From Crossaster papposus (lineage: Eukaryota; Echinodermata; Asteroidea; Velatida; Solasteridae), in the NCBI GenBank assembly GCA_037893245.1, contig JBAIAA010000120.1, forward strand, positions 558,001-622,000: a DNA stretch of 64,000 nucleotides, read 5' to 3'. The translations under genes and the position numbers were made by a program. Under the pieces are notes generated by a model, which searched no databases, was not told the origin of the DNA, and saw only the letters and a program-made list of their open reading frames with translations. Shown here piece by piece: positions 816 through 53,500 of the stretch; positions within the stretch are counted from its first letter, which is position 1; each line of letters begins with the position of its first letter.

Positions 816-3371
816 CTTCAAAATAATGTCACTCTACTGGGGATCGATGTCACTCTACTGGGGATCGATGTCACTCTACTGGGGATCGATGGGGATGAAT
901 GTCACTCTACTGGGGATAGACGTCACTCTACTGGGGATAGATGTCACTCTACTGGGGATGGATGTCACTCTTCTGGGGATGGACGTCACTCTACTGGGGA
1001 TGAACGTCAGTCTACTGGGGATGGATGTCACTCTACTGGGGATGGACGTCACTCTACTGGGGATAGATGTTAGTCTACTGGGGATCGATGAATGTCGCTC
1101 TACTGGGGATGGACGTCGCTCTACTGGGGATGGATGTCACTCTACTGGGGATCGATGTCACTCTACTGGGGATGGATGTCAGTCTACTGGGGATGGACGT
1201 CACTCTACTGGGGATGGACGTCACTCTACTGGGGATGGAAGTCACTCTACTTGGGATGGACGTCACTCTACTGGGGATGGAAGTCACTCTACTTGGGATG
1301 GATGTCACTCTACTGGGGATGGACGTCACTGATCTACTGGGGATGGACGTCAGTCTGCTGGGGATGGATGTCACTCTACTGGGGATGGGTGTCACTCTAC
1401 TGGGGATGGATGTTAGTCTACTGGGGATGGATGTCACTCTACTGGGGATGGATGTCAGTCTACTGTGGATGGATGTCACTCTACTGGGGATGGACGTCAC
1501 TCTACTGGGGATGGATGTCAGTCTACTGTGGATGGATGTCAGTCTACTGGGGATGGATGTCACTCTACTGAGGATGGACGTCACTCTACTGGGGATGGAC
1601 GTCACTCTACTGGGGATGGACGTCAGTCTGCTGGGGATGGGTGTCACTCTACTGGGGATGGGTGTCACTCTACTGGGGATGGATGTTAGTCTACTGGGGA
1701 TGGATGTCACTCTACTGGGGATGGATGTCAGTCTACTGTGGATGGATGTCACTCTACTGGGGATGGATGTCACTCTACTGGGGATGGACGTCACTCTACT
1801 GGGGATGGATGTCAGTCTACTGTGGATGGATGTCAGTCGATCTACTGGGGATTGATGTCACTCTACTGGGGATGGACGTCACTCTACTGGGGATGGACGT
1901 CACTCTACTGGGGATGGATGTCACTCTACTGGGGATGGACGAGAGTCTAGTGGGGATGGGTGTCACTCTACTGGGGATGGGTGTCACTCTACTGGGGATG
2001 GGTGTCAGTCTACTGGGGATGGATGTCACTCTACTGGGGATGGACGTCACTCTACTTGGGGATGCGGACGTCACTCTACTGGGGATGGACGTCACTCTAC
2101 TGGATGGATGTCACTCTACTGTGGATGGGTGTCACTCTACTGGGGATGGACGTCACTCTATTGGGGATGGACGTCACTCTCCTGGGGATGGATGTCACTC
2201 TACTGGGGATAGACGTCACTCTACCGGGGATGAATGTCACTCTACTGGGGATGGATGTCAGTCTACTGGGGATCGATGTCAGTCTGCTGTGGATGAATGT
2301 CGCTCCACTGGGGATGGATCGCTCTACTGGGGATGGACGTCGCTCTACTGGGGATGGACGTCGCTCTACTAGGGATGGACGTCACTCTACTGGGGATCGA
2401 TGTCGCTCTACTGGGGATGGATGTCACTCTACTGGGGATGGATGTCACTCTACTGGGGATGGGTGTCGACTCTACTGGGGATGGATGTCACTCTACTGGG
2501 GATGGATGTCACTCTACTGGGGATGGACGTCACTCTACTGGGGATGGACGTCACTCTACTGGGGATGGACGTCACTCTACTTGGGATGCGGACGTCACTC
2601 TACTGGGGATGGACGTCACTCTACTGGGGATGGACGTCACTCTACTGGGGATGGATGTCACTCTACTGGGGATGGACGTCAGTCTACTGGGGATGGATAT
2701 GTCACTCTACTGGGGATGGATGTCAGTCTACTGGGGATGGACTTCACTCTCCTGGGGATGAATGTCACTCTACTGGGGATGGACGTCACTCTACTGGGGA
2801 TGGACGTCACTCTACTGGGGATGGATGTCACTCTACTGGGGATGGACGTCAGTCTACTGGGGATGGATGTCACTCTACTGGGGATGGATGTCAGTCTACT
2901 GGGGATGGATGAGGCTACTGGGGATGGATGTCACTCTACTGGGGATGGACGTCACTCTACTGGGGATGGACGTCACCTGGGGATGGATGTCACTCTACTG
3001 GGGATGGACATCACTCTACTGGGGATGGACGTCACTATACTGGGGATGGATGTCACTCTACTGGGGATGGATGTCAGTCTACTGGGGATGGATGTCACTC
3101 TACTGGGGATGGATGCCATTCTACTGGGGATGGACGTCACTCTACTGGGGATGGACGTCACTCTACTTGAGATGCGGACGTCACTCTACTGGGGATGGAC
3201 GTATCACTCTACTGGGGATGGATGTCACTCTACTGGGGATGGATGTCAGTCTACTGGGGATGAATGTCGCTCTACGTACTGGGGATGGACGTCGCTCTAC
3301 TGGGGATGGACGTCGCTCTACTGCAGGGGATGGACGTCGCTCTACTGGGGATGGACGTCGCTCTACTGGGG
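816..3371. repeat. 21-bp minisatellite, block 1
   Basis: Tandem units of TCACTCTACTGGGGATGGAC plus G (21 bp) vary mainly at GGACG/GGATG/CGATG and CACT/CAGT/CGCT. Because 21 bp is seven codons and the unit lacks stops in several frames, long peptide-periodic open frames run through it on + (GMDVTLL, WGWTSLY, GDGRHST heptads) and on - (SIPSRVT heptads). These look like by-products of the repeat: there are no splice sites, codon bias or conserved domain. Many units carry an AatII site (GACGTC). The block ends abruptly at an inserted element at 3,372. Confidence 0.95.
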
Positions 3372-4312
3372 CATAATGAAAACTTACGGTCATCTGCTCA
3401 ACCAAAACAATGCACGCGCGCTTCAACACGGGAAATGACCCAAAAATGCAGCATTTTTTTTACAAAACCGAACGTATCTTTAAAACTAAATGAGCTGTAC
3501 ATTTCTGGTGAACGGTTTCTAAAAATAGACACATTAAGCTTTTTTAAAATCTAACTCTCGATATCATGATACCTTCAGGGGTACCGCCAAATGTTAGGGA
3601 AGTGTGTGTTTCAAGCCACGTTTTCAATGGGACGCGATGACATTTCGCCCTTTTGGGTACACTTTTTTACGTTCAGCATGTCGTATATCAATAACCGCTT
3701 GTCGTACAGACTCCTGGTGAACGGATTTGTGTAGCCGATTTCAATAGCTTTCCAGTGATATAAGACATACATTGATTGGTGGTTTAGTTCGGCCGCCCAT
3801 TCATGATAAAAAATAGTGTCCAATCACGCATTTTCTACTTCGGCACCCGGCTTGGTGACCTTTTGAATCACGCTAGGACTACTGCATTCTCCCCGTAGGT
3901 TTATGAAAACATACACACGTATATGTACATGTACGTGCACACGTGCTGTTGATTTTACGATCGTGTATGTCAATGTTCATTTCTATCGCTTGTTTGTTTT
4001 ACATTACAAATTAGCATGTATTTCTTTCTGTTTACTGTAGTGAATTAAACATGTTATAGCCTAATGCCTAACAAGAAGTCCAAGGGTAATTGTTCGACTC
4101 TGTACAAATGTACATGATGTACTACATGTGTATTTGTCGTTTAAACTCCCCTATAAATCGTAATGGAATAACTCACGTGGGGAGATTTCCATGGTACGTC
4201 TGTGCGCGCTGCGGGTGTTATTATAATTAGGAAGGTCAATTCTCCCTGCTCACTGCACACACACAAACCAGTCAGAGCTTTTGCTTGAAATCGGGTTAAA
4301 GTTTTCATTATG
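3372..4312. mobile_element. 941-bp insert with short terminal inverted repeats inside the minisatellite
   Basis: The minisatellite is broken between GGGG and ATGG by 941 bp of unrelated sequence. Its ends are CATAATGAAAACTT and the exact complement AAGTTTTCATTATG. The uninterrupted paralogous site lies at 5,098/5,099, so both junctions are exact and show no target-site duplication. No transposase-like frame was recognised. The superfamily is unassigned; the ends faintly resemble P-element ends, which may be chance. Confidence 0.75.
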
Positions 4313-5776
4313 ATGGACGTCACTCTACTGGGGATGGACGTCAGTCTACTGTGGATGGATGTCAGTCTACTGGTGATGGACGTCACTCTACTGGGGATAG
4401 ATGTCAGTCTACGGGGGATGGATGTCACTCTACTGGGGATGGACGTCAGTCTACTGGGCATATCAGTCTACTGGGGATGGATGTCACTCTACTGGGGATG
4501 GACGTCACTCTGCTGGGAATGGACGTCACTCTACTGGGGATGGACGTCAGTTTACTGGGGATCGATGTCAGTCTACTGGGGATGGACGTCACTCTACTGG
4601 GGATGGACGTCAGTCTACTGGGGATCGATGTCAGTCTACTGGGGATGGATGTCACTCTACTGGGGATGGACGTCACTCTACTGGGGATGGACGTCACTCT
4701 ACTGGGGATGGACGTCATGTCTACTGGGGATCGATGTCAGTCTACTGGGGATGGACGTCACTCTACTGGGGATGGACGTCACTCTACTGGGGATGGACGT
4801 CACTCTACTGGGGATGGACGTCACTCTACTGGGGATGGACGTTAACTCTACTGGGGATGGACGTCACTCTACTGGGGATGGACGTCACTCTACTTGAGAT
4901 GCGGACGTCACTCTACTGGGGATGGACGTATCACTCTACTGGGGATGGATGTCACTCTACTGGGGATGGATGTCAGTCTACTGGGGATGAATGTCGCTCT
5001 ACGTACTGGGGATGGACGTCGCTCTACTGGGGATGGACGTCGCTCTACTGCAGGGGATGGACGTCGCTCTACTGGGGATGGACGTCGCTCTACTGGGGAT
5101 GGACGTCACTCTACTGGGGATGGACGTCAGTCTACTGTGGATGGATGTCAGTCTACTGGTGATGGACGTCACTCTACTGGGGATAGATGTCAGTCTACGG
5201 GGGATGGATGTCACTCTACTGGGGATGGACGTCAGTCTACTGGGCATATCAGTCTACTGGGGATGGATGTCACTCTACTGGGGATGGACGTCACTCTGCT
5301 GGGAATGGACGTCACTCTACTGGGGATGGACGTCAGTTTACTGGGGATCGATGTCAGTCTACTGGGGATGGACGTCACTCTACTGGGGATGGACGTCAGT
5401 CTACTGGGGATCGATGTCAGTCTACTGGGGATGGATGTCACTCTACTGGGGATGGACGTCACTCTACTGGGGATGGACGTCACTCTACTGGGGATGGACG
5501 TCATGTCTACTGGGGATCGATGTCAGTCTACTGGGGATGGACGTCACTCTACTGGGGATGGACGTCACTCTACTGGGGATGGACGTCACTCTACTGGGGA
5601 TGGACGTCACTCTACTGGGGATGGACGTTAACTCTACTGGGGATGGACGTCACTCTACTGGGGATGGACGTCAGTCTACTGGGGATCGATGTCAGTCTAC
5701 TGGGGATCGATGTCAGTCTACTGGGGTTCGATGTCGGTCTACTGAGGATGGATGTCAGTCTACTAGGGATGGATAT
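4313..5776. repeat. 21-bp minisatellite, block 2, with a 786-bp higher-order repeat
   Basis: Same 21-bp unit as block 1. Variant units (TTGAGATGCGG, CTGCAGGGG, CTACGTACTGG, GGGCATATCAG, GACGTTAAC) recur in the same order. The block from 3,169 (skipping the 941-bp insert) to about 4,895 is repeated from 4,896 to about 5,666, with a period of 786 bp. A large unit was therefore duplicated after the small repeats had diverged. Confidence 0.9.
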
Positions 5777-5872
5777 TTATTTATTTATTCCATTTCTTTA
5801 CTCAGTGTGTGCCAAAACAGTTTAAAACTGGTTTTCATTGGGGCCCTGCATACATCGTTAAATACAATAACA
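5777..5872. other. Non-repeat spacer inside the minisatellite
   Basis: About 95 bp of AT-rich sequence starting TTTATTTATTTATT separates two minisatellite blocks. No feature was recognised in it. Confidence 0.6.
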
Positions 5873-7669
5873 GTACATATACTGGGGATGGACGTCGCTC
5901 TACTGGGGATGGACGTCACTCTACTGGGGATGAACGTCGCTCTACTCGGGATGGACGTCGGTCTACTGGGGATGGACGTCGCTCTACTCAGTGGGGATGG
6001 ATGTCACTCTACTGGGGATGGATGTCACTCTACTGGGGATGGATGTCACTCTACTGGGGATCGATGTCACTCTACTGGGGATGGATGTCACTCTACTGGG
6101 GATCGATGCCAGTCTACTTGGGATCGATGTCAGTCTACTGGGGATGGACGTCACTCTACTGGGGATGGACGTCACTCTACTGGGGATGGACGTCAGTCTG
6201 CTGGGGATGGACGTCACTCTACTGGGGATGGATGTCACTCTACTTGGGATGGATGTCACTCTACTGGGGATGGATGTCACTCTACTGGGGATGGATGTCA
6301 CTCTACTGGGGATCGATGTCAGTCTACTTGGGATCGATGTCAGTCTACTGGGGATGGACGTCACTCTACTGGGGATGGACGTCACTCTAATGGGGACCGA
6401 CGTCAGTCGATCTACTGGGGATGGATGTCAGTCGACTGGGGATCGACGTCAATCTACTGCAGGGGATGGACGTCGCTCTACTGGGGATGGACGTCGCTCT
6501 ACTGGGGATGGACGTCACTCTACTGGGGATGAACGCGCTCTACTCGGGATGGACGTCGCTCTACTGGGGATGGACGTCGCTCTACTCAGTGGGGATGGAT
6601 GTCACTCTACTGGGGATGGATGTCACTCTACTTGGGATGGATGTCACTCTACTGGGGATGGATGTCAGTCTACTTGGGATGGATGTCACTCTACTGGGGA
6701 TGGATGTCACTCTACTGGGGATGGATGTCACTCTACTGGGGATGGATGTCACTCTACTGGGGATGGATGTCACTCTACTGGGGATCGATGTCAGTCTACT
6801 TGGGATCGAGGTCAGTCTACTGGGGATGGATGTCAGTCTACTGGGGATGGACGTCACTCTACTGGGGATGGACGTCACTCTACTGGGGACCGACGTACGT
6901 CAGTCTACTGGGGATGGATGTCAGTCTACTGGGGATCGACGTCACTCTACTGAGGATCGATGTCACTCTACTGGGGATGGACGTCACTCTACTGGGGATG
7001 GACGTCACTCTGGATGCGGACGTCACTGTACTGGGGATGGACGTATCACTCTACTGGGTGGATGTCACTCTACTGGGGATGGATGTCAGTCTACTGGGGA
7101 TGAATGTCGCTCTACTGGGGATGGACGTCGCTCTACTGGGGATGGACGTCGCTCTACTGCAGGGGATGGACGTCGCTCTACTGGGGATGGACGTCGCTCT
7201 ACTGGGGATGGACGTCACTCTACTGGGGATAAACGTCGCTCTACTCGGGATGGACGTCGCTCTACTGGGGATGGACGTCGCTCTACTCAGTGGGGATGGA
7301 TGTCACTCTACTGGGGATGGATGTCAGTCTACTGGGGATGGATGTCAGTCTACTTGGGATGGATGTCACTCTACTGGGGATGGATGTCACTCTACTGGGG
7401 ATGGATGTCACTCTACTGGGGATCGATGTCAGTCTACTTGGGATCGATGTCAGTCTACTGGGGATGGATGTCAGTCTACTGGGGATGGACGTCACTCTAC
7501 TAGTGGGGATGGACGTCACTCTACTGGGGACCGACGTCAGTCGATCTACTGGGGATGGATGTCAGTCTACTGGGGATCGACGTCACTCTACTGGGGATCA
7601 ATGTCACTCTACTGGGGACCGATGCCACTCCTCTACTGGGAATCGATGTTACTCTACTGGGGATCGATA
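5873..7669. repeat. 21-bp minisatellite, block 3, with 600-700-bp higher-order units
   Basis: Same 21-bp family. The marker CTCTACTCAGTGGGGATGG occurs at about 5,982, 6,579 and 7,282. It is preceded each time by a CTACTCGGGATGG variant and followed by a TACTTGGGATCG variant, so this block has its own higher-order repeat of about 600-700 bp. The longest incidental open frame in the whole array (513 codons) runs from block 2 into this block. It ends in degenerate units before 7,680. Confidence 0.9.
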
Positions 7670-8004: not shown

Positions 8005-8435
8005 ATAGCTTACAGAAGACGGATATAGTGCCGGATACTAATAAATATATTTGTTGAAAACGCGCGAGAATATTGTTTTGTACAATTTATCTGGCGGCCG
8101 CCACATAATATCTGGCGGCCGCCACTTAATTATCTGGCGGCCGCCACATAATATCTGGCGGCCGCCACATAATTATATGGCGGCTGCCACATAGATAATT
8201 AAGTGGCGGCCGCCAGATAATTATGTGGCGGCCGCCAGATATTATGTGGCGGCCGCCAGATAATTATGTGGCGGCCGCCAGATAATTATGTGGCGGCCGC
8301 CAGATAATTATGTGGCGGCCGCCAGATAATTAAGTGGCGGCCGCCAGATAAATGGTACAAACAAATATTCTCGCGCGTTTGCAAAACAAATATATTCATC
8401 AGTATTCAGTGGCACTATCCGTCTTCCGTAGCTAG
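8005..8435. mobile_element. Foldback element with a core of NotI palindromes
   Basis: Two inverted arms of about 85 bp (8,005-8,090 and 8,350-8,435, both containing AACGCGCGAGAATAT-like sequence) flank an array at 8,091-8,352. The array consists of TGGCGGCCGCCA palindromes separated by CATAATTATC-type spacers. Eleven units keep a perfect GCGGCCGC and one has GCGGCTGC. Unit orientation flips near 8,195, so the whole element is a large palindrome. No protein is encoded. Confidence 0.8.
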
Positions 8436-15007: not shown

Positions 15008-18000
15008 TTATGCTGTAGTTGCGCTCGCCATGGCCTCTTTTTCCATGGCCTCCAATTCCTCGAACGACATGTTGAGGTCGTCGTCTGCGAACTGGTCTTG
15101 GCCGGACGACGGCTGGGTTTGGGAGGCCAGTGGTTCCGAGGACGTCTGGGGAGACACCCGAGGACTCGGGGCCGGCTGGCTCGTGGGACGGGACGAGGTG
15201 TATCGACTGGATTCTGTACAGAAGAAGAAGAGATGACGAAGAACTTAAGGGAACGAACAAAACCCGGTATTAAATTTGTATTTTGTCAGGTGTGCATTTT
15301 TATAGTTTGAAATTGAAGCAGGTTATCGATCTAGGTGCTTGACTAAGTGTTAATTATAGTCCGTAAATGCTGTATTTTCCGGGAAAATAATATTCCGAGA
15401 AAAATAAGATTTCGTTTTTAAACCAGCTACCAGATGGTTTAAACTATTAATGGGAAATTCAAAAAATGCGTCTCTGCGACTTATATTGCCAGAAGGAATC
15501 TAATTTGAAAGGTAAATTAGATTCAGTATAAAAAATATCTTGAACTAAATAAATTCAACCGAAATGTCATTTATCGACCAGGGAGGTATGATTTTAAAAA
15601 GCCATAGCTAATGGGGCAATCTTGTTGTTTTGTTTTGGCGAAGGTCTACAGCATGGCCGCATGCAGATACCATGATTGGGTTATATTGCCAAAGCTACAA
15701 TGAGTAATCGATTTTTGGACGGTGGTCTGGAAAACCGAGGGGCCCGGGGAAAACCCAAGCGCGTCACTCCCAATTCACGTCACCAACAACTAATTAATAA
15801 CTTCTCGTTTCTCAAGAAAGACCGTCTGGTGAGTTATGAATTTTACGAGCAAATAATGATTTAAGTAAGTATAATTGATGGAAATTAACAATTAGATGTA
15901 CATGTACAGTACACCGAAAGGCTCCAAGGATGTTCCGCTTGAAGAACAGCGCTCATCAGCCAAGCCACGTGCTTGACGTCACTGCGTTTAAGCACCGCCT
16001 ACGCATACGACACGAGGGCCAGGGTCACCCTATGGTCACACATTGTACATGCATTGCGCACGTACGTGCATACATGTACATTGTACAGTACGTATACGTA
16101 TACGCAATTGTACTCTCAGCAGTCAGCAGATAGACTTGCGGAAAATCCCACGTTCAGTGAAACGTGAACGACAGCACATTAGGGTGATTAACACCAAAGT
16201 CTGCTCTACAATTTGGGTGAGTTTATTTTTAAATTGTTCTCAGTCAGTAAAGGCGTATTGGCTGTATGTATGGCTAGTTTTGAATGTTTGACTCGTTGTA
16301 CGCTGTCGTACGGGCGGGTGTTTTGGTTATTATTGACAAAATCATCATAGAGCAAGGTTTTGTACATTCTCACAGGCTACATGCCCACGCATGTATGAAT
16401 GATTGTGCAACGGCATTGTCATGTATGTACATGTACATGTAGTACCATTTGTACAGTTTGCCAAATTGATCTGTATTTGTCTATTAAAATAATAAATGTG
16501 TGAATTTGGCACATTTCTAACTTAGTTGGCGTAGTTTATATGTTGATGACTTGAAAACAAAATTGTGATTCGTTTTACTAAAGACAAGTTAAATTGTTTA
16601 AACTTTTGTCAAAAGTTAAATTGTTAAAAAATTTGTCAAAAGTTAAATTGTTTAAACATTTGTTAAAAATATTTGCCCATGAAAGTATCCAGTAATGGCA
16701 GGATTTCCAGGTATTAAATGTTAGAAATAAAAATAAAATGTATATCGCTTGTTCAGTTGTTGTCATTTCGAAATTACACCAAAATCTAGACTGTGCTATT
16801 TTTTGTACAAACTGCATGATGATTTTTCTGGATTCTGTTTTTCCTTTTAGGCAATTTAAATTTGTGTCGACTTTGTAAAACTATCCTCCGACCATCATGG
16901 CTGAAGAACTGCAGAGAATTCTAGAATGCCCGATGTGCTTAGAACTGTTTGACTCCTCGGACAGATGGCCCAAGTTGTTGCCGTGCCAGCACACATTTTG
17001 TCGGTTGTGTCTGGTGCAGTTGGACAAACAGGGCGAGATAGCTTGCCCCCAGTGTCGCCAACAGCACAAAAGTCCACCTGGCGGTGCTCAGCAACTGCCG
17101 AATAATTTTACCATGCTCGCCTTGCTTGACGTTCACACAAAATCAGCTCCCTCCCCAATGTCAAGCGTGACATCTTCAGAGTCTGCTCGGGAAAAAGCTG
17201 CAGACGACAGTGTCCGGAAAGCGATTGCAGAACTGGCCCAGAGACTACATCAGAAGGCCGGAGACCTAGCCAGTATCGACACGAAGAGGCAGATAGTAGA
17301 GGAGAAATTTCTCGCCGTGAAGAGCCAGGTGGATGGTGCGTTCGAATCACGTGCTCGCGACCTGCAGATCCGTAAAGAGGCTCTCATTAAGCAACTTGCC
17401 GCGATGAGGCAGGAGGAGCTGAACCTGATGGACACACAGAAGGCCAGTGCTTATCAGTACCTTCAGAAGTTCCAAAGAGACTTTGCAGCAATGCGGGAAT
17501 CCATCTTGGCAAGTCAGCAACCCACACAGGACCAGTATAATCAACTGTTGACTGTCTGTCAACGGTACACCCAACAAATTGAGCAGTACGCTCTCACCAT
17601 CGATGAAAACCTGCGCGAAATTTCATTCAATGATCCAAACCGAACCCAACTGTCGATAAGCATTAATTCCTATGGAGTCCTACAAGCCACCAGCATGGAC
17701 AAAAATAAGAACAAGCCTAGCAATGCGATCATTCTCCAGCTGCAGAGCCCCTCAACTAGCACCACAACTGTCGCTGGAAGCACCCCTCCAGGAACACCCA
17801 CCACTTCATCAGGGACACCTCCAGCTTATACAAGGAAGAACTCAATGCCCGAGATCTCCATGGCAAATCTAAACAAATCCTTACCTCATGTCGCAAGCGC
17901 ACCTAATGTGCAACAACAGGAAGGAAGCCCTTCATCCTCCAGGGCTTCATCAAGATCTGCTTCCCCGCTGCTTTCCAGCAGAAATCGTACCCAAACTCTC

Positions 18001-21000
18001 CCGAACATGAATCCACTCCCAGAGGCTCAGACTTCAAATGCAACTCCATCATCATCAGCAGCCGGAACACCCATCCGTAAAGACAGCACCGGTAGCATGT
18101 TTGTTCTAAGTGGGAATCCATCACCGTCTCCAAGCTCAAGAGGCAGTGCAAGGGAACACTCGGAGAGCAGTCCAGCGACTGCAAGACAGCCAGGAGAAAC
18201 ATCGGTAAACAGAAACCCATTCTCACCAACAGCAGAATCACCAAACACAGGTGGACCTAACAGGTCACAAAATCCATCGGACAGTATTGTCCCTTTCAAA
18301 AGAAAACCCGTACCCATTCCAGTTCCCAGTAGCTCTGTTCCTGTGTCTCGAAGTCCTGCGGCGGGAGATGCTTCTCGTAACCCTGTCCTGACAAAGCATG
18401 CATCTCTGGACAAACCGGCACCTCCACCTAAACCAGCCCTGCCAACTAAACCAAACATGAGCAGCTACACCAGGCATGGATCTATTGATTTTGGCACAGC
18501 TCCTTCGACTGCCTCAGGAGATCTTAGTCCCAATCTAGCCTCGATAAGAGAGCAGAGCTCAGTACAGAGCAGGCCAACAAGTTTGGGTATTGGCTCAAAT
18601 AGTTCCAGGCAACCAAACGTGGTGTCCCCAGAGGGGCCCATTCCTCCACTGCCACCTCGCAGAGTGAAAAACACTCAGCTCAATCGTCCACATAGCATGA
18701 TTGCTGAGTGCAGTTCAAGTCTCGGTGGAAAGAATGCTTGGGTGAAGTTTGACACCATCGGGTCAAGATCCCGTAGGTTTGGCAAAGATCGTGCCAAGGA
18801 GGTTGCAGTTATTGGTAGTGGTTGGTTTGGGGGGTCGTTTTTTGAAAGGCCCACTGGAGTAGCTGTCCTCCCACAAAATCTCATGGCCGTCGTTGATGAA
18901 AGGAGCCACTGCATCACCATGGTAACCGAGGCCGGTCAGTTGGTAAAGACCATCGGGGCCCAAGGCAACGGACAGGGCCAGTTCCAATTTCCTAAATCTA
19001 TTTGTCTTAACAGCAGACGGCAGATGATCGTCTCGGACTGGTGGAACCACCGCATCCAGATCTGGGATGTGAATGGACAGTTCATCTCTCAGTTTGGAAC
19101 AAGAGGATCCCAGGCCAACCAGTTCAATGGTCCCTTGGGCGTGGCTTGCAACGCTTCTGACGACATCTTTGTCTGCGACACCAACAATCACAGCGTAAAG
19201 GTCTTCTCTCCAGAAGGAAACTACCTACGGCAAATCGGTAAGGAAGGTCACGCTGAGGGCAACTTCATTTGCCCGTCCCACCTAGTGGTGTCACCAGGTG
19301 GAGAGCTCCTGATCACAGATTCAGGCAAGCACTGTGTTCAAATGTTCAGCACTCACGGAACGTTCCTCTATCAGTTCGGGGAGTGGGGGACAGGTCCTGG
19401 TCAACTTAACTGCCCCTCGGGCATCATGATCGACCCGAGCGGGTACCTCTTTGTTTCCAGCAGTGGCAATCACCGGGTTGAAGTCTACAACCCTTCCGGA
19501 TCGTTCGCGGTTAGTCTTGGCACTCATGGGCAAGACAAGGGTCAATTTGATGAGCCAATTGGCATCGCATCTACCAGTGATGGACAAGTGGTCGTCTGTG
19601 ATTCGGGGAACAAAAGGGTGCAGATGATGTGGCCCTGAATCCAGGTAACGTGGGGGTAAAGACTAAAGAGCAGAACATGTAGTTTGCTTCTGTTTGTTGC
19701 GGTAAACTTTGAAATATTATAAACCTGCAATTTGTGGTAATTAGTAAAACATTGTGCAAACATAGGAAGAAAATCAACCAATTATGAAAAGGGATTTTGT
19801 CTTGCTCTACACTAATTATAATTGTAAATTAAATAGTATTGAATATTGTAACTAATATGACATTCCCTTTATTTTATAAATGAAAACATAATTTTACCCA
19901 TTGCACTCTAGATGTAAGGATTTTTACGTTGAAAATTTTTTTCCTGAAACATAATTTGTGTGTATCCGAAATGTTTATTGTTTAGGTTGACAATGCACTT
20001 CCTTTCAGTACAACAATATGGTTGCATAATTTTATTCATAGCCTTTGTATTCCACACACGAATGTTATGCACGACCGATTGACACTGTATCAAGCTTGCA
20101 AATTTCATGTTAATTCATTCGGGACAGAAACTCTAGAATTCATGGAGTGGGCCGATAATTTACAGTAAACAGGATTTCATCAAAGCGGATTGGGGAAACC
20201 ACTCGAATCGTGTTAGAAGTACTAAGCCTGCATACACGTACTTGTACGCGAGCCTTAATTTAATCTAGATAAAAAAATGTTAAAGTACGTGTACCTTAAT
20301 TCTCTACGATGTATGCTGCATGTAATTTTTCACCCACTGACATTTTTGCAGTAATCTTGTACAACTCAAAAAAGATTGTAAATTTAATGCTGGCGTAGCT
20401 GAACTGGAGACGCACAATCTTATCTTCATACAAAAATGTCCAGTTTACTTTTTGTTTTCCACACTGATCAAAACCTACACACGAGAAACAGTGTCCTAAA
20501 AAAACATGACCTTTTTAAGTTGGCTATATATTTTGCTGGTTTTTTTTCTTGTGGGGATGTACAGTATGAAGAATTCCTTTATCACTCTTGGGACGAGTTT
20601 TCTTTCATCGCTATCTAATAAAGCATCGTAAATTCCTGCAAAACGGGGAAAGGATGAACCCAGGATAATTTTAAGGACACTGACACTGAGTCACTAATAA
20701 GGTTACAATTGCTGTTAACGTTTTAGTCCTTGGAACAATTTCCTGTGTTCGGTTTTCTAGTTTACGAAACACGATCTTTTAGTGACCTCTAGTCTTGTGC
20801 ATTTTGAATCCCACCCACAACTCTTTGTATTAACCCCAAAAAATATTAATAAAAATACAAGCGAGATTTGATAAAATGTGAGATCAGATCGGAGATAAAT
20901 GTACAAAAAAAAATAACATGCCTTATTGTTTCTGATATGAATAATCTGAATTACATGTAATACTTTTAAAATTAATATGAACCTTCAGTTTTAACTGACT

Positions 21001-24000: not shown

Positions 24001-27000
24001 AAAGGATTGAAAAACCATAGTATAGAAGTATTACGATAGACTGATTCTGGGCAAGTTTTCCAAGAGAATCCCATGGGAGGTGGGATATGGAAGATCCCCC
24101 AGACACACGGCACCCTGTCTAAATGGGTCTCGCAAGACTAGCAAAGGCAATAATATTACAATAAATTTAGTTGATAAAGCCACATCATTAATTGTGATTA
24201 CTGTTATAATACAACTGTCTCACCCTCGTATTTCTTGTCTCCGCTCAATAGTTTCTGGCTCTCTTCGAAATACTGATTAGGATGCTGAATGGCAATATCT
24301 GTCTTGATGTTCTGTTGATTATGGTAAACAAATATTATGGTAAACAAATAATGGTAAACAAATATTATGGTAAACAAATATCAATTTTCTTATGATGGAA
24401 AGAAGGCAATATGGTGCGGTATCACTCTTTTTCTTATGAAAAAAACAGAACAGCAGATTGAAGAAAAAAAAAATTGCATTTTTGTTACAATATGCAATCA
24501 AGTTTCAGTTCTGGTAGAGTACAATTTTGTTGAGGTTCAGAAAATTTCTCAAATAATTCTCTTTCAAATGACAAATATTTTTTTTAATAATAATTAAAAT
24601 TTTTTTTAACAAATACAAATTCGTCAATATATGTTTCCCCTTCTGCTGCATTTCAATATTTTTAACCAGTTCGCGCCGGATGACGTATATAAACGCAAAA
24701 TTTTTCCATGATTCAAAACGGATGACGCATAAACACGCCAAGTTCAAGTTCGGAAATGTATGTCAGCAGCGGGCAAGGCCGGAAATGCGTGGGTGTGCTT
24801 CCCGGCACTATCAGCCTGAACACGCTTCGGATTGAGTTTCGTTAAAAATAATCCCGCCCGTGGGCTCGGCGATGTTAAAATAATCCCGGCGCGAACTGGT
24901 TAAAGAGATAAAGTTACGTTTTGGGGGAAATGAAGTTGAAAATGTCAAACTTACGCCGTGTGTCAGCATAAAGTATTTCGAGCAAGCGACCTGGTAGTGA
25001 GATTTGTTGACAAGATCAATAATCTGGGGAGAAAAAGAAAGAAGTAGTTTGGTTTGGCAAGGAATCAACAAATTGGTTTATAAACAGCAACAACTTGTAT
25101 GTCCAGTGAGTAGCATCTCAATTTAATAAGCATTCCACGGGAAATTCTACCAGATTTTTTAATTGCGAATGCACGACGCACCTCGTCAATTCCGGACTGG
25201 GTAACCTTGTACGCAGCAAGCCTCTGCTTCAGCAAATTGCTGTCGGTGTGACGGAACGGGCAACCTGTGGAGAATATAATTGAATATAATTTGTAATCCT
25301 CAAAAGAATGTACTGCCAGATTTGTGCACTTTTAATTATCTGCGTGTGTGTGTTGCTCGTTCTGTATAGTGTGCGTCACACGTCCATGCCCCGGGTTTGA
25401 TCCCTGCCCAGGTTCGATTCCTGTCGGGGTTTGAATCCTGCCCAGGTTCAATTCCTGCCTGGGTCTACATATAAATCGTGGTTTCAATCTCTACTTGATT
25501 TCGTGGGTTTCCTCCCAGAATATTCTTCTTGGGTTTTCCTCCCACCTCAAAAACTAATTTCTGTTGTTGTCTCTCTGCAGGTTTCTTCAGGCTTGCAAGC
25601 TACAGTGCCCATGGGCACTCTCTTGAGAAATTGTCGGCCAAAATTCCAAGAAGAAAACCCAAACCATCCAGAGAATTTGATGGTGGTTTTATAACTCACC
25701 ATGGTGATTTTATTTCTTACCATGGTGGTTTTATTTTTCACCATGGTGGTTTTATTTCTTACCACGGTGGTTTTATTCCTTACCACGGTGGTTTTATTCC
25801 TTACCATGGTGCTTTTATTTCTCACCATTGTGGTTTTATTCCTTACCATGGTGCTTTTATTTCTCACCATTGTGGTTTTATTCCTTACCATGGTGGTCCC
25901 CCGTAGCAGGAGCGTTTGTCATGATGATCTTCATACAGCTATACGGCGTGTAGTCGGTGCGCTTTCCTTCCTTACCATAACTATGGCGAACGTTGTAAGA
26001 GTACTGCTTCTCAAACTGTAAAAAAGAGAAAGAAGTAAACTTTGCAAAACCAAAGCAATATATTTCTGAAATATTTTTCATGTAAAAAAAAAATACTCAA
26101 AGGCTGACCTACTTGAGCCTTGAACTCGCGACCCCTCGCATAATAGTGCCGTTATCTAACTTGCTGGTGCTAGCATGACTGCACAGCAGCCTTTGTCTAG
26201 TAGCTGCACTGCACAATGGACACGAACGTGCAGCTGTGACACTGGCTGTGTTCTACAGCGTAACTGACAACAGGGTTCCGGACAGATTTGCGGGACGCGG
26301 CCATAACAGCTCCCAGGCGTCAAGGTGTTAAAGAATCTCATAAACTAAACACCCTACCTTATCTCCATCCATGATCTTGGAGAACTCGCTTCTCCAGAAT
26401 GTCAGAGCCTGTTCTAGGGTCAGGCCGATTCCCTTGAGGAACAGGCCGTACTGCATGCGGCCGTGGTGACGCAGGTGGTGGTTGTCGCGGAGAGCGGAGT
26501 GGAGCTGACGCATGCAGAGCGGAAAAGACTTTCTGGCATGCTGCGGATTTGAAAGAATTGGATAAAAAAAGCTCAAAATACTTGGTGAAACCATTAACTG
26601 GAATAGTTTCTACGATACCTAACGAAAGGACGTGCTTTAACCCTAACCCTCCAGGTTATTTTGGCTAGAAACCCTGCAAGACGCATCAGATTGCATACTT
26701 TGTCACATTGACTTGTGTGCAGAGTGCAGCAAGGTCAAGCAGTCACCACAGATGCACTGTGCTGGGTCTGGCAGGGTTAGGGTTAATAGGGGACAAGCGC
26801 AGAATTTGGGTTGCGAGTTCCGTAAGCACAAAAAGGCGATCGTAGGCACAAACTTCAAATGGTAACCAGAGCCACAACATTGGTGCCAGAATTTCTCCCA
26901 CAAACGTGTCAATCAATGGGAGGTATAAGTGTGTAAATCACTCGTCTCTGACCGATGTAACCCAGGTTCAATTCCCAGCTCGAATTAATTTGAGTAGAGT

Positions 27001-44501: not shown

Positions 44502-47500
44502 TCAATTCAGCTGCAGGAGCATCTGTTCGAGTTCCTCGGCCGAGCGGTAGAGGAACGCCGCTGACTCGCGGTAGCTGGTGATCAGCTGTCGGATGTTGGC
44601 TATTTCCGTGGGGCTCATCTGGGGTTTTGAAGGCAACTTTTTCACGCTGAGGTCCGTCGGGCCTGAAAAAATGGTCACGGTGGATATTTTTCAAGTGAGC
44701 AACGTGGCTTTGTTTGGTAGAGAATGCAACGATGGAGAAGTTTTGTGGAATTAGTGTGAAGTGACTGTCTTGAAAACAAGAAGTGGTTCTAAGATTTTGA
44801 TAAGTATGCTTCGACCGTATTCAGGAGTCCATGACTTTTGCGAGGGAATCAATTTTGTTTGGGACATGCTGTATACATGTACTAGTGTTTACGGCATTCT
44901 GTGAGTTCGAACAACGACCGGAACATGGTGCTTGTGTTCTTGGGCAAGACACTTGACGACCATTGCCTCTCTCCACCCAGGAGTATAAAATGGGTATCTG
45001 TAAGGGGTACGGACCAGACGCGCTGCGTTCTAGTGTTTACGACATTCCGCAAGTTTGAACGACGAACGGAACAGTACTTGTGTTCTTGGGCAAGACACTT
45101 GACGACAATTGCCTCTCTCCACCCAGGAGTATAAAATGGGTATCTGTGAGGGGTACATGAGCAGACGCGCTGTGTTCCAGTGTTTACGGCATTCTGCAAG
45201 TTTAAACAACGACCAGAACATAGTGCTTGTGTTCTTGGGCAAGACACTTGAGGACAATTGCCTCTCTCCACCCAGAAGTATAAAATGGGTACCTGTGGGG
45301 GTAGGGACTAGACACGCTGATCTCGACCTGCTGCAAACTGGTCTCAAGGCCTGATGAACAGGGGATACTACATTGATTTTATTATTACTAAGCTTTCCAA
45401 AAAGCTGAGGAGCTTTTTCTCACTCACCGTTGGACATCTGTGCATGCTGAGAAGGCTGCATCATGTGTGGTTGGTGCGGGGCGATACTCCCGTAGTACGG
45501 GTCGTGCGAGGTGACGCCGTTTGCAAAACGGTAGTCTACTGGCCGCGGCGAGGCATGCTTGGGCGACTCCTCGTACGCGACGCGGGACGGCGGCGTTGGC
45601 TGCGACTGGTGTGGCGACGTCTCCATCCGTGTCTCAGTCTGCTAAAAAAAGAAGGAAAAAAAAGAGCAAATTACATTTCATAAATGGTGTCGTGGCAAAA
45701 ACACCAAGTTCAATCACGAACTTTGGTTAACCTTAAATAAGGCCGGTTTAAACGTGAAAGTGGAATGCGGTACAAAGGTTGACGTCGCAAAGCATTCGCT
45801 GCCAACCTTCGCCAGCAGAGTTGAAATGTGTTCAACATTTTTGCGAATTCGCAGCACGGAAACTTGCGGTAACATCACAAGTTCGCTGTCGTGCCGAATA
45901 TATGAACCAGGCTTTACCTTAATGTCCTTCATCCAACCAATGTTGGTCAACGCTAGTTGGACTATAATCTCACTGACGAATTGGGACCAGCCTTGTTGTG
46001 GTTACATTGCTAGTTACCAATAGCCGCAGATAATGCAACGTAGCGCAGTCAAATTTTATTTTGGAAAACGTTTGTCCGATTCTACCATGTTTGCGCTGCA
46101 ATATTGGGTTCAGTAACGGCAACAGCTGCGACTATAAAGTCTCTACCTTCAAACCTGTACCGCTCTCCTTTTTCTCCAAATCCTTTCCTCCAATTTCCAA
46201 ACCTGCGTAGGTCTTCATTTTCCACGGCTTTCACACAGTGTGCTCAGTCTAAATCAACCTGATCATGAATTATACACACGCTACATGTATAAATAAACTT
46301 CTGGGATTAATCAAGTGTGGTGTTTTTCCCCCGGCACCTCCCCAAAGCGACACGACCGCGATGCCTCAGCCAATCGCCCGGCTTTAATGACTGTGTGTGT
46401 ACATGGCTCACTCCCACTTAAAACCACCCACCGGCAGATGAGCTCGCCGTGATGATTAACATTTCCTCCTACGATGACTTTTTGTCTTAGTGTTTAGTCC
46501 CGGAGTTAACATTAGCTTACGACCACGTCCAATTGAGTCACGCCTCTAAGCAGACGGACAGCTTGTCATAATTGCTTAGCGTAAACTCAAGATCAGATTT
46601 ATAACTTATGTTGTCATCCTCGACAAAACGCCATCAAGAAACTAGTGCCAAAATAAAATGTAACATCTCTCACACAATGTGATCAATTCTCAGTTTCCAT
46701 TTTCTATTTGTGTAATTCTTGTCTGGTCGTCTTTATCATTTAACAAAGGTCCCCTGTAAATTAAAGCTATTGTTTCTAATAGTAATTCAAACTCTCTTTT
46801 TTCCAGGTACATGTACTGGGGATTAGGTAACGAAAGCTCTATCATTTTTTTTTCCCTCTGTTCAAAATATATATTTTTCCCTTCACCCTTCAACCTCACT
46901 ATAACAAATAATTATCTATTTCTAATTTTCAAAAACATTCCTTTAAAAAAACAGGTGTATTCATCCCTAATGGCTAGGCATTCATTTGGGGTACAGAACG
47001 CAGTACTACAAAATACTACTCAATTCTCATATATAGGCCAGTGTAGTAAGAGTACTGCAAACTGCAGTTTGCTCAAGCAGTATTTGTAGTATTGGGTAAG
47101 GGTAGGGTTAAGACAAATTAATTTACCCCCCCCCCCCCCCCCCCCCCAACAAAAACCCACCAATATCCAGGTTAGGGGCATTAGCTGTAAGGTTCTCAGC
47201 CTCCAACTGACCTCATTTGGTTTTGGGTGGGATTCTTTTCCTTTAGTTATCGTACCAAACCTTGAATTTCCTCTGTCTCATCATTTTTGATGGGTTCTTG
47301 GCAAGTACAATGGGGTTTATTTTTTCCCAACAAATCATTGGACCGATTACTAAAATATCCACATCCAAATTTTGGGAAAAGCTGAAACAGTCGGCAGAAT
47401 TCAGCGTACATCCTACTCAAATTGTTAAGAATTCTGTTCGTCAAAGAAGAAACTGAGTAGGTTAATAGCAGGCGTTTGACCTAGGTGAAAACTATTCAAT

Positions 47501-50500
47501 GAGATTTCTTCTTTTTTCAGAGTTGTGGGGCAAAAAGTAGGGAAAAGGTAGGAAAAGTAGGAGCAAGGTTAAAAAACTAGGAAAAAGTAGAAATACCTGG
47601 TCTGGAATACTTAGTCTGAAGTAGAAAGTCTGGAATCAGACTTTGTTGGTAGAGTTTTGTTATAATGCTCTTAGGTCCCAGAATCATTGTTTTTTGAAGG
47701 GAAAAAGTAGGAAAAGTTGGAGCAAGGTTAAAAAACTAGGAAAAAGTAGAAATACTTGGTCTGGAATACTTAGTCTGAACATGGAGGAAGGAAAACAGAA
47801 GGAGAGAGCACACACTGACTTCAAAGCCCATATGATGGTCGCCGCGCTTATAAACTCAACAATGGAAAACCGCAAATCCTAATTTGAGTTTCGCGCGGTC
47901 AGCGAGCCAGCAGTTGCCGCTTGGCATGATGGGAATGGTTTTGCCCGTGTATTCAGTCTTGAAAAAAACGAAAACAAAAACACATTTTCGATCGTTTTTT
48001 TGTGCAATTGTCTAGACGTGTCTCGTCCTAAAACTAAACTATTCAATTGAGTTTTTTCTTCGTCCCCATTTTAAAGTATTTTTCGGCTGTAGGAAACCGT
48101 CGGAAAAAATGTTATGGCGATAAAACTTTCATAGGTTCTCTATTTCAGGAAATAAATGTAACTTGCCGAGTTTTAGGCCGATTTTGTTCAGCGAACCACC
48201 AAAACGCGCACCGTTTTGCACCGAAGACAACGGGTTCCCGTGAGATTTTGCAGGGGCTACACAAACCAACTGCGCATGTGAACAGTGCTGTTGTTTACAC
48301 GTCTAAGTTTCATCGCTGCATCTTCCACAACTCGAGTGCGCCGATTACCAACGAAATCGCGGCGACCGTCATGCGCGCAAAAGGCCAGAATAGGTCGTAA
48401 AACTCCTGACCGCAGCGCTCGACCGCAGCGCTGAGTGTATGGGGGTAATCCGGTGATTATCGATTGGACTGATAAGGGGATTTCGTTCTCTCTCCTTCTG
48501 TTTTCCTTCCTCCATGGTCTGAAGTAGAAAGTCTGGAATCAGACTTTGTTGGTAGATTTTTGTTATAATGCTCTGAAGTCCCAGAATCATTGTTTTACCT
48601 GTTACTATAAGATAAGAACCCCCTACGATTGTTTTTCAGAGTTTCGTGGTGGTTTTTTGTTTAACTCTGTATCTGTTTATTCGAGGTTGATTGAACTCTA
48701 TTTGGCCTCTGAAATTGAAAAGAACCTGGATACAGGTGAACGACTGAATGTCCCAATTTGCGAGCAAAGGTCGATGCCTCTACGTCTTTGCTTGAAACAC
48801 GTCAAAGTACAGCGATGTGTATTCATTCAACAAGTCCAGTCACAGACTAGATCCCCCTCTTCCCCCCCTATTCACCCGCTTAGCCCGTCCCGACACCTCG
48901 AGCGGTACGAATCACAAGGGTTACGTCGACCCTGCGGTCCTTGCCCGTGTCAGGGCAGGAAATGCCCCTCAGTCTCGGGGAATCCGCGGCAGCCGCGTCA
49001 ATACCGGAAAGCGTTGGCAATTAGCACGGGAAGTGATGGTGCGGTGTGACCCAACGCCGCGGTTGCTTGCGCGGAGATAGGGGGACAGGTAAGGTGTCGG
49101 CGCGATGACTGGTATCCACCGCCAGACACCGGTGACTCTATAACCTAAAGGATGGTTGAGGTTGTTTTTGTTCCTGTCGCTGCTTGATTTTCAATTTTTT
49201 TTGTTTTTTTTATGCCTGCGGGTAAGGGCAATGTGACCGCACAGACTGGTGCCTGAATGCGACTTCCAACTCCCAACTGATTAGAGTGGGGAGATAAAGG
49301 AATCTGACGGGGAACAAAAGTTATAAGCCTCTTGCTAATAATCTTAGCCAACAAAATAAAATCTCACTTTTATTAAAAAGTGAGATCTCAACTTTCTCAA
49401 AAAAAATAAATCTCAACTTGTATTACTTTGTAGATCGAAACAATCTGCCACTGTTTTAACACAATAAGAACTTGCATTTTAATACCAGGTTTTTTAAAGT
49501 TACAAAAATATTGGCCACTTTTAACTTTCAAAACATGTCAGGTAGATTTCAAGGTATAATCGACTTCATTCGATACAAAACGACTAAATACACCGCAGTT
49601 GGCCAACTTACCGTGTGTCCAGCCTGCATGAGCTCCATCCTTAACCTCTTGGCGTTCTCGCTTTCACTCTCGCAAGCTGCCGCTAGGATCTGCTCCGCTC
49701 TGGCTGAGGTCAAATGAGGCGGTGTCGGGCGCTGCGTCTGAGAAGTGACGGGGAAACAAGATTCCTTTCATCAAAAAACGTAACATCTACAATTATTCTG
49801 ACATGATTTGTATCTACTTTTTCAAGCAAATTACAAAAAGGAACAACTGTTGCGACACCAGCAACAATTTGACACTTTAGAGATACCAAAGTGGATTAAG
49901 AAAAAAAAAAAAAAATCTCGAAGAATTAGGCTTGCAGGAACTTGTCAACTTTTAATAACAGGCAGTCAAGAAAGCTGGGAATGAATGAACACTGGAACAA
50001 GGAAAATCGACTGACGAGCAGATACTGTGCTGTGCACCGTTTGAAAGAGCGCCCTCGACGAGTTGCGCATGCAACAAACGCCCAACAACAGTGTTTATAT
50101 CGGTTTAGATTAAAACGGCAAAACTAGACGACCATAAAACACCATACACCATTCTGACCAGGGGCCAATTCCATGGAGCTGCTAAGCAAACAAATTGCTT
50201 AGCACAAAAAAGTCTTGCTCAGTAAAAGCAGGTTACCAGCCAAAACTCCATGTGTTTTTCATGTTAAGCAAAAACCAACTGATTACCAGTCACAAACGAT
50301 TTACATCACCTGAAAATTTGGTTCGTAACCCTGTTTTTGCCCAGGTAGAATTTTCATGCTAAGCAAATGTTTGTGCTTAGAAGCTCCATGAATTTGGCCC
50401 CTGACACCTTTACCAAGTGCGTACGCACAACAGAAAGAGAAGGTTTAGACAGGAAGTTAGATTTACGTTTTGGGAGCGTACCGAGTAAACCCCGTTCTGG

Positions 50501-53500
50501 TCTAAGCAAATGTTTGTGCTTAGCAGCTTCATGAATTTGGCCCTTGATGACACCTTCGCCAAAAAACCGCGTACGCACAACAGAAAGAGAAGGTTTAGAG
50601 AAGTTAGATTTACGTTTTGGGAGCGTACCGAGTCAACCCCGTTCTGGTCTCGATGGCGCTTCATGCGGCGGCAGGACTTGAGGTAGGTGCGGATGCGTTT
50701 GCGGGCTCGCTCGTGGAACTCTGGGAACTGTCGGTAGCAGGCCTCGATGATCGCTTGTATCTTCTCCTTGGGCTGCTTGGAGATGGGCACCATGCGGTCA
50801 AGATTCTCGTCAATGAAAAGGCGGACGAACATCTGTAGAAGACGATTGTAAGATTGTAAGATTTTGTTGGGAGGAGGGAGGAGGAAGGGGTGGATAAAGG
50901 GGGTTGGGGCTAATCATCCTTACTTGCAGCTGAGAAGCTGAATTGCGAAGGACGAGGCTTCGTGAAGGCATGTAGACACCCACCATACGACCTTATATCT
51001 GACCACGGAGCACAGCCAGAGCTCAATTGAATTTTGCTTAAATTTGTTATCCCTAATTCATAAAACGAGACCATTTCTGCAGCAGCTCGAGATCAGTGCA
51101 ATTTGGTCTCTACTTTCACAGGTACCCATTTATACTCCTAAGTGGAACAATACTGTTCAAATTTTCCCAGCCCTTATTCTTGTCCACAATTGTCCGTTTT
51201 TGTGGTAGCACGGTACTATGAAGAATCATCTTCAGTAGATTGGCAATGAGTATGTCATTCTAATAATAATAATAATGTTCGTTTTTTATATAGCGCTTTA
51301 GACTCCCACAATGTGGGTGTATCAAAGTGCTTAACAACTATCATCCCTGTTCACAAGGAACGAGACCATTTCTGCAGCAGCTCAAGATCAGCGCATGTGG
51401 TCTCTACCTTCACAGGTACCCATTTATACTCCTGGGTGGAGAGAGGCAATTGTAGCAAAGTGTCTTGCCCAAGAACACAAGCACCGTGTTCCCTGCCAGG
51501 GTTCGAACTCATGTACCATCGTACAGGAGTCAAACACGGTAACCACTGGACCACAGTGCCTTACAAGTGAAGAACTATTGCAACATCTTATAACCCTTGT
51601 GATTTTATCTTTATCTTCTTTTTCTTCTTCTTTTTTTTTTTTTTTTTTTTTTCTCCTCGTGTGTTTCATCACGGCTCCCGCCTTCTTCCTTAGGTGACAT
51701 CTGGATGTAATCTCTAGAGGAAATTGTATTCATTCACAACGGCAGGCAATCATTGAGCCGAGCAGTATCAGGACCTGGGGCCAATTTTAAAGAGCTGCTA
51801 AGCACACAACAAATTTGCTTAGCATGAACAATCTTCCTTGGTAAAAACAGGTTTAACAATTGTTTGTGACTGGAAGTCAGCTGATTTTTGCTTAGCATGA
51901 AAAACAGTTTTGGCTGGTCACCTGTTTTTTAATGAGCAAGACTTTCTTTTTTTTCGGAGCAAAATTGTGTGCTTAGCAGCTATATGTGGAATTGGCACCT
52001 GATTTCAACTGCTTAGATTCTTAGAGTTAGGGGAGGGGGAAGGGGGGAGGGGGAAGGGGTGGAGGGGTAATATAAAACTCAAACTTTCAAATTCAAACTT
52101 TTCTTTTAAATTCTGCAACTCTGTCATATTCAAGTAAATTTAACGTGTTTTTTTACAATTCTGTTCTAAAGAAAAGGGAAGGAGTTTAAATTGTAGGTGT
52201 TTTTTTTTCTTTCTTGGAAGGGAGAATCTTACGTTGAATGCCTTGAGTCGTTCCGGGTCGACTCCGGGCGTTGTCTCGTTGAGTTTATCACTATCGTCAT
52301 CGCCGTCGTCATCATCATCGTCATCTTTTGTCACTGAGAGATCCTCGGGCGTGTCTCGCGCCCCATCCGGTGGCGGGTGAACCGACGTGCCGACCAGGGA
52401 ACTGTAGCCAAACCCGTTGGACGAAGTCTGGAGTTGGTTAGGGGCAAACAGGAAAAGACGTGGGAATTTGATTTAGATAATGCAGAGGGAAGGATAGAGG
52501 TAAAGAAAGGGATAACAAAAAAATCTAGCCAGCAGGATCATCCGTGAGTAAACGGTGTCGGTGATAGCGATGATAAGTAATGGGTTCCAGGTGTTCCCGT
52601 TTAAGAGGTGAACGTGATTTCAGAAGGAGGGGTTCAGACTATTGCCACAGGGTCAAAGTTCAACAGGAGATACAATGTCACAATTCATTACGGGTCGGTG
52701 ATCGGGGTAGATTCACACAAAGTAGATCGATCGGGGTAGATTTAAAGCATCACTCCAACGAGATACATGTTGCGTCTTGACTGATGAGTGTGTTTAATTG
52801 GCGGTTGGATCTGGGTATATAATTGTGCATCAATCACTCCATCAAGGAAACGGAAACCGTTTCATCTGGCAGTTGAGGTACGACAGCTAGATAAATGCCC
52901 CGAAAATGTCTTCATGTACATGTAAGGCACAAGTCTTGGTTTAACAAGTCACACTTAAATGTGCCAGGTTGCATGCGCTCCAACCCAGTTTTTCTCACTT
53001 TTTTTTTAAAACAGAAATGTTGGTAAATTCGTTTTTTAGAATTGTTAACAATAACACTTATTGCGAAACTGTTGACAGAAACTGTTTATCAACTTTTATA
53101 GCAAATCTGTAATATGTGACCTGTCATCACAAAATGAGCGTAAAGTCGGCAAAATCAAAAATTGAGATATGGGTATTTCTAAATTCTGTGGAAACGGAGC
53201 TTTCCAATGGTATATAACACTTGGAGGTTTGATACTCAATATTTTTTTTATTTTTTATTTTTTAGTCTGGAGTCTTAATACAGAGATTATGAGAAAACGG
53301 GCATTTCTTACGAAAAATTGTGTGAAAGGCATAGAAAGGCATAGTCAAAATTGTCTCAAAAACTAGTTTTGTTTTATCTGATCGTCCTGAAAAATTGGGA
53401 ATTGATTGTTGGAGATTTAGTCTTTAAAAAAAACATATATTATCTCAAAATCGACCACCCCTTCAAATTTTGACTTTGACTGGCCGTACTGGGAAATCAC

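Follow-up and report, generated by a model that had tools for sequence, protein, structure and literature searches.

At the end of one exon of the gene for the DNA primase large subunit (PRIM2), the last exon bases and the adjoining splice donor have become the unit of a tandem repeat. The locus sets a natural test, as to how the spliceosome chooses one donor among ten that are nearly equal and lie 21 bases apart, and it raises the question whether the additional copies matter to the gene. The window analysed here, that is, the whole stretch of 64,000 nucleotides of Crossaster papposus DNA (41.6% G+C), contains the intron-bearing PRIM2 gene on its minus strand. The exon which borders the repeat (25889–26015, 127 nt, minus strand) ends by encoding GDHH and opens a Gly codon with its final base. 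Among PDB chains its peptide has 22 matches, every one named DNA primase large subunit (best E-value 8.7e-20); aligned to chain 4rr2_B (509 residues), which we take to be human, it extends to residue 383 and includes a cysteine opposite residue 367. The next exon (25182–25264, minus strand, GTTGCCCGTTCC...) supplies the rest of the Gly codon and, within the motif CPFRH, the conserved cysteine that comes next, presumably human C384; the cysteines aligned to positions 367 and 384 are assumed by us to hold the Fe-S cluster. Introns of 342 and 624 nt flank the 127-nt exon, the longer one (25265–25888, minus strand, phase 1) being the host of the array. The protein joined from nine exons can be aligned with PRIM2 chain 8g99_C along 343 of 347 residues (E-value 1.1e-139), two further exons seen upstream having been left out of the joined protein. 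A nine-residue gap in the alignment between the last two exons suggests that one more small exon is located there, and the gene, as far as its sequence can tell, looks intact.

Tandem Repeats Finder delimits the array to 25680–25897 (21-bp period, 10.4 copies, 85% matches, no indels). Read on the minus strand, it consists of ten full units (25895–25686) followed by a 6-bp stub, CACCAT, and each unit comprises seven exon-like and 14 intron-like bases. The first of them, unit 0, straddles the exon end with seven bases of the exon and 14 of the intron, confirming the first-pass annotation, which had described an array of about ten 21-bp units starting with the PRIM2 donor itself. The GT of unit 0 (25887–25888, minus strand, in the context ATG|GTAAGG) is inferred to be the donor actually used, as the conserved protein junction indicates. 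Units 1 to 9 provide nine decoys (25698–25867, minus strand), whose first intron-like bases are 25867, 25846, 25825, 25804, 25783, 25762, 25741, 25720 and 25699. All ten units have GT at the donor position, which is part of GTAAG in six units, GTGAG in three and GTGAA in one (25741), so that the GTRAG motif, claimed beforehand for most units, is indeed kept by nine of the ten; units 2 and 4, both decoys, equal the real unit 0 in all 21 bases. A side observation concerns the exon end, where the sequence reads GDHHG (25890–25898) and the PDB PRIM2 chains displayed in the alignment have GDYHG; with the altered codon, CAC, the repeat unit begins.

The mere contact of the array with a donor is not rare: judged by coverage only, a tandem array would touch one or more of nine PRIM2 donors with a probability of about 0.26, and one of 18 junctions with about 0.45. 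What distinguishes the array is that exon end plus donor recur in every unit. Donor strength was scored with a human donor matrix, and the U1 pairing energy was computed alongside. On this matrix the real donor reaches 9.32 and leads the ten PRIM2 donors scored, of which the tenth has 5.65, while the U1 energy of the real donor, –8.5 kcal/mol, ranks second of nine, behind that of the donor of the preceding exon (–9.7). Eight of the nine decoys score between 8.07 and 10.05 by the same matrix and are thus about as strong as the real donor, the remaining one 4.99; the computed U1 energies are –8.0 to –9.2 kcal/mol for the eight decoys and –5.4 for the weak one. Unit 9, the last and strongest decoy (25699), surpasses the real donor in both respects (10.05 versus 9.32; –9.2 versus –8.5 kcal/mol). 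The 64 kb hold 35 sites scoring at least 8 with this matrix on the minus strand and 33 on the plus strand, and the array, with the real donor counted, accounts for nine of the 35.

Another claim of the first-pass annotation, namely that use of any downstream donor adds an in-frame TAA which truncates primase between Fe-S cysteines, agrees with the prediction made here, in which the stop falls between the cysteines aligned to 367 and 384. The 21-bp period preserves the reading frame, and each of the ten units presents TAA in the frame of the exon; unit 0 reads GGT AAG GAA TAA, and the protein is predicted to end with ...GDHHGKE-stop after any later donor. However, this stop is no special device. 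It belongs to the intron start itself, that is, to unit 0, so any retention of the intron would meet it.

Repeats of this type have been described elsewhere. The "mirages" of amphioxus, found in Adh3, in the globin genes BflGb6 and BflGb9, in PGBD5 and in troponin C, are minisatellite-like repeats at exon–intron boundaries (PMC3087553, PMC3902484). Units of the Adh3 mirage are given as 10–72 bp, many mirage copies are said to keep splice signals, and the accounts of the Adh3 and globin mirages describe them as not interfering with regular splicing (PMC3087553, PMC3902484). Mirages occur in a cephalochordate, and instability of length among haplotypes or tissues is counted among their traits. 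The PRIM2 array resembles them in being a tandem repeat at such a boundary with splice signals in many copies, here GT in ten of ten, and differs in its unit of 21 bp, the presence of GT in every copy, the in-frame stop in each unit and the AATAAA near the donor in nine of ten. Another relative is the VNTR in intron 18 of human ABCA7 (PMC5954066); its 25-bp repeat opens with the two donor bases of exon 18, and as in PRIM2 the real donor lies in the first unit. According to that account, a usable donor lies one unit further on, and retention of one unit leads to an early stop and apparently makes up 2 ± 1% of isoforms, independent of array length (PMC5954066). The ABCA7 unit shifts the frame, lies in a C-rich region, starts at GT and recurs from about 12 to 427 times, whereas the A-rich PRIM2 unit of 21 bp keeps the frame and takes in seven bases of the exon. 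The dual-specific splice-site arrays described for UBC and VCX3A share the feature that splice sites recur once per tandem unit; however, UBC units are coding and their sites serve as both donor and acceptor, whereas the PRIM2 units are intronic and donor-like only. We consider the PRIM2 array a further example of the mirage or ABCA7-VNTR kind. Searches of the literature on boundary repeats, none of them directed at PRIM2 by name, showed no report of it, although one may exist.

The reading we favour, with a probability of roughly three in four, is that of a boundary-spanning minisatellite of the mirage or ABCA7-VNTR kind, in which splicing mostly uses the first donor and the decoys are mostly ignored. 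Exon definition would pair the upstream acceptor with the nearest of several equally strong donors, and leakage to the decoys, of perhaps a few per cent, would produce mRNAs with an early TAA, the level of which would be lowered by decay; the array would then be nearly neutral. When two identical donors were placed in each of five minigenes with flanking introns of 365 nt, to be compared with the 342 and 624 nt around the PRIM2 exon, splicing is reported to have used the upstream donor exclusively (PMC9225289). According to the survey in the same source, the stronger donor prevailed in 86% of events, while for pairs of nearly equal strength the upstream donor was favoured in only 60% (PMC9225289), figures which, together with the stronger unit 9, count against first-donor use. 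The ABCA7 precedent also carries cautions. Blocking decay is described as having raised the stop-containing isoforms (PMC5954066), so the 2% understates donor use, and longer arrays are reported to be associated with more skipping of exon 19 and lower expression (PMC5954066), so "near-neutral" may be too strong a term for PRIM2.

That the chain of decoys buffers or regulates PRIM2 splicing, as had been proposed from the letters of the sequence, would imply a contest for U1 in which the later donors draw part of the transcripts into a form that contains a stop and is decayed, thereby tuning the amount of primase. Strong donor motifs in nine of ten units, an in-frame TAA on every diversion and a last unit scoring above the real donor would suit such a device. 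Conservation gives it no support. When random mutations, two thirds of them transitions, were placed on the consensus of the seven distinct units, with the number per unit as observed, all seven variants kept GT in 26% of draws (P 0.26), and at least six of the seven kept a score of at least 8 in 11% (P 0.11); seven variants make this a weak test. Variable columns number 4 of 9 within the donor and 3 of 12 in the rest of the unit, the donor columns being no better conserved than the others. Neither the simulation nor the column comparison thus gave a sign of selection on the donors in these seven variants, and the persistence of GT and of strong donors is compatible with random mutation and drift. 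Moreover, in the precedents from amphioxus and ABCA7 the copies appear, from the accounts given, to be little used, and the TAA is already present in the intron start. Regulation by decoys is unlikely. The array might also mark the beginning of intron gain or of exon lengthening, with one of the later copies turning into the used donor or a new exon, as modelled for the amphioxus globin mirages (PMC3087553). A second boundary repeat of the window, in NOL4, would allow this, its second donor adding 49 stop-free codons, but every extension in PRIM2 hits TAA at most four codons past the real donor, so the array as it stands cannot lengthen the protein, and we regard this course as very improbable for PRIM2. 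Least probable is an assembly artefact that inflated or collapsed the copy number. The copy number of the lancelet PGBD5 repeat is reported to have differed between two assemblies (PMC3902484), but the repeats of that study were confirmed by re-sequencing according to the same source (PMC3902484), and ten units that comprise seven variants are not expected of simple stutter.

The array also contains poly(A) signals. Nine AATAAA hexamers (25709–25882, minus strand), one in each of units 0 to 8 and starting at donor position +7, represent nine of the 71 minus-strand AATAAA of the window; unit 9 has TATAAA instead. The most G/T-rich stretch of the host intron begins about 10 bases beyond the array (25645–25671, minus strand), where the eight most G/T-rich 20-mers among those listed for this intron are located. 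The two strands together hold 68 strong donor-like sites. An AATAAA starting between +3 and +15 accompanies only eight of them, none outside the array; each of these strong donors lies 6 nt before its hexamer, and no other such pair occurs in the window. At the other eight PRIM2 donors checked, AATAAA is absent within 60 nt, one of them having ATTAAA twice. At the level of sequence, the array shows strong U1 sites directly before poly(A) hexamers, and G/T-rich bases lie further downstream. It could conceivably constitute a U1-masked intronic poly(A) array, in which U1 bound to each donor would block cleavage at the adjoining AATAAA unless U1 is short. Under U1 shortage, transcripts would end within the intron, encode a PRIM2 cut at GDHHGKE and escape nonsense-mediated decay; intronic poly(A) mRNAs have been described as immune to decay (PMC3826338). 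The idea gains from the restriction of the strong donor–AATAAA pairs to the array (8 of 68), from the prediction that AATAAA is unpaired in units 0 to 8 (probability 0.86–1.0), and from the known inhibition of a poly(A) signal by U1 that binds a few bases before it (PMC3826338). On the other hand, the copies derive from a single ancestral AATAAA by duplication and so are not independent, and the retention of the hexamer fits drift (simulated P 0.09). A self-masking polyadenylation switch of nine modules of U1 site plus AAUAAA, eight of them with a strong donor, thus seems a remote prospect. If it did exist, each new copy would bring the hazard together with its antidote and the array could grow safely, an example of how a repeat may expand within a vital gene when the antidote travels with it; a fall of free U1 relative to transcription would then yield stable mRNAs for a primase large subunit devoid of the last two Fe-S cysteines. 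The U1 suppression of poly(A) sites known from BPV and from telescripting (PMC3826338) likewise involves a U1 site a few bases upstream, whereas the PRIM2 array would have this arrangement nine times, once with a weak donor, its function being putative. A literature search on U1-masked poly(A) repeats, judged by titles and the start of abstracts, found none described.

Returning to the boundary minisatellite, its origin may be sketched from the relations among the units. Units 0, 2 and 4 are identical, as are units 1 and 3, whereas units 7, 8 and 9 are each two to four bases away from any of the others, and the terminal stub CACCAT matches the PRIM2 exon end. A tandem duplication of seven exon and 14 intron bases would have come first, possibly seeded by the direct repeat ACCACCAT, the two occurrences of which, 21 bases apart, are visible at both array ends. 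Slippage or unequal exchange would then have enlarged the array. The identity of units 0, 2 and 4 and of units 1 and 3 points to a recent pair duplication, so that the latest growth would have proceeded in 42-bp steps at the exon side. This history is an inference from one sequence.

The RNA of the array is predicted to fold far better than shuffled sequences (z = –6.36), none of 200 shuffles equalling it; the reason is the self-complementarity of ACCAUGGU, through which the units pair with each other. In all ten units the donor GU is predicted to be mostly paired (unpaired probability 0–0.15), the real donor included. Structure as the feature that sets the first donor apart was therefore rejected, since the model treats real and decoy units alike in this respect. 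As an observation on the same stretch (25680–25897), six of the ten units contain a perfect palindrome of 8–12 bases around ACCATGGT, so DNA and RNA copies of the units can pair mutually; an 8-base palindrome was found in 11% of 5000 random 21-mers of the window taken as tandem units. Coding use of the array was dismissed as well. Open frames exist on both strands, but a stop-free 21-bp period gives them automatically; this argument was the sole ground on which the plus-strand repeat peptide was set aside.

Two other repeats touch the introns of PRIM2. In the intron that contains the 21-bp array, tandem copies of the motif GGTTCGATTCC occur at 25390–25464. This motif resembles a tRNA B box, and its copies are possibly a SINE remnant. 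The end of a 16-bp array of four copies (24318–24381) falls some 33 bases before the acceptor belonging to the last PRIM2 exon found, where the branch point would be expected.

The second boundary repeat lies in NOL4, where two copies of a 147-bp unit (50359–50650, minus strand) cover 22 bases of the inferred exon end and the inferred donor. The Pfam NOL4 helical domain matches until just before the repeat (E-value 2.3e-36), the inferred exon ends at 50629, and the copied site is at 50482; both copies read GACTCG or TACTCG, followed by GTACGC. By the human matrix the inferred donor scores low (4.26), another GT within the repeat reaching 4.24. Unlike in PRIM2, where a stop follows, splicing at the copied donor would lengthen the reading frame by 49 codons, none of them a stop. 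The NOL4 repeat is probably a further example of the mirage or ABCA7-VNTR kind, and PRIM2, probably along with NOL4, joins the short list of genes in which an exon boundary has turned into a tandem repeat. As it was found by inspecting arrays near coding frames, two boundary repeats are not an unbiased count for the window; if such repeats were frequent in the genome, they would offer raw material for intron change.

Further repeats and one gene were noted elsewhere in the window. An Rfam search gave a single, weak match to tRNA, and five repeat strings sought in the literature turned up nothing. A 21-bp satellite of about 320 copies of TGGGGATGGATGTCACTCTAC (890–7668) has the period of the PRIM2 array and, by eye, no likeness to it, and a 22-bp tandem repeat TTATGTGGCGGCCGCCAGATAA with the core palindrome GGCGGCCGCC is situated at 8087–8351. 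A single open frame at 16897–19635 encodes a TRIM-like protein with a RING domain and NHL repeats. At 44884–45319 a 146-bp unit is repeated three times, and similar translated motifs, recognized by eye near 39.5 kb and 51.4 kb, suggest a dispersed repeat family.
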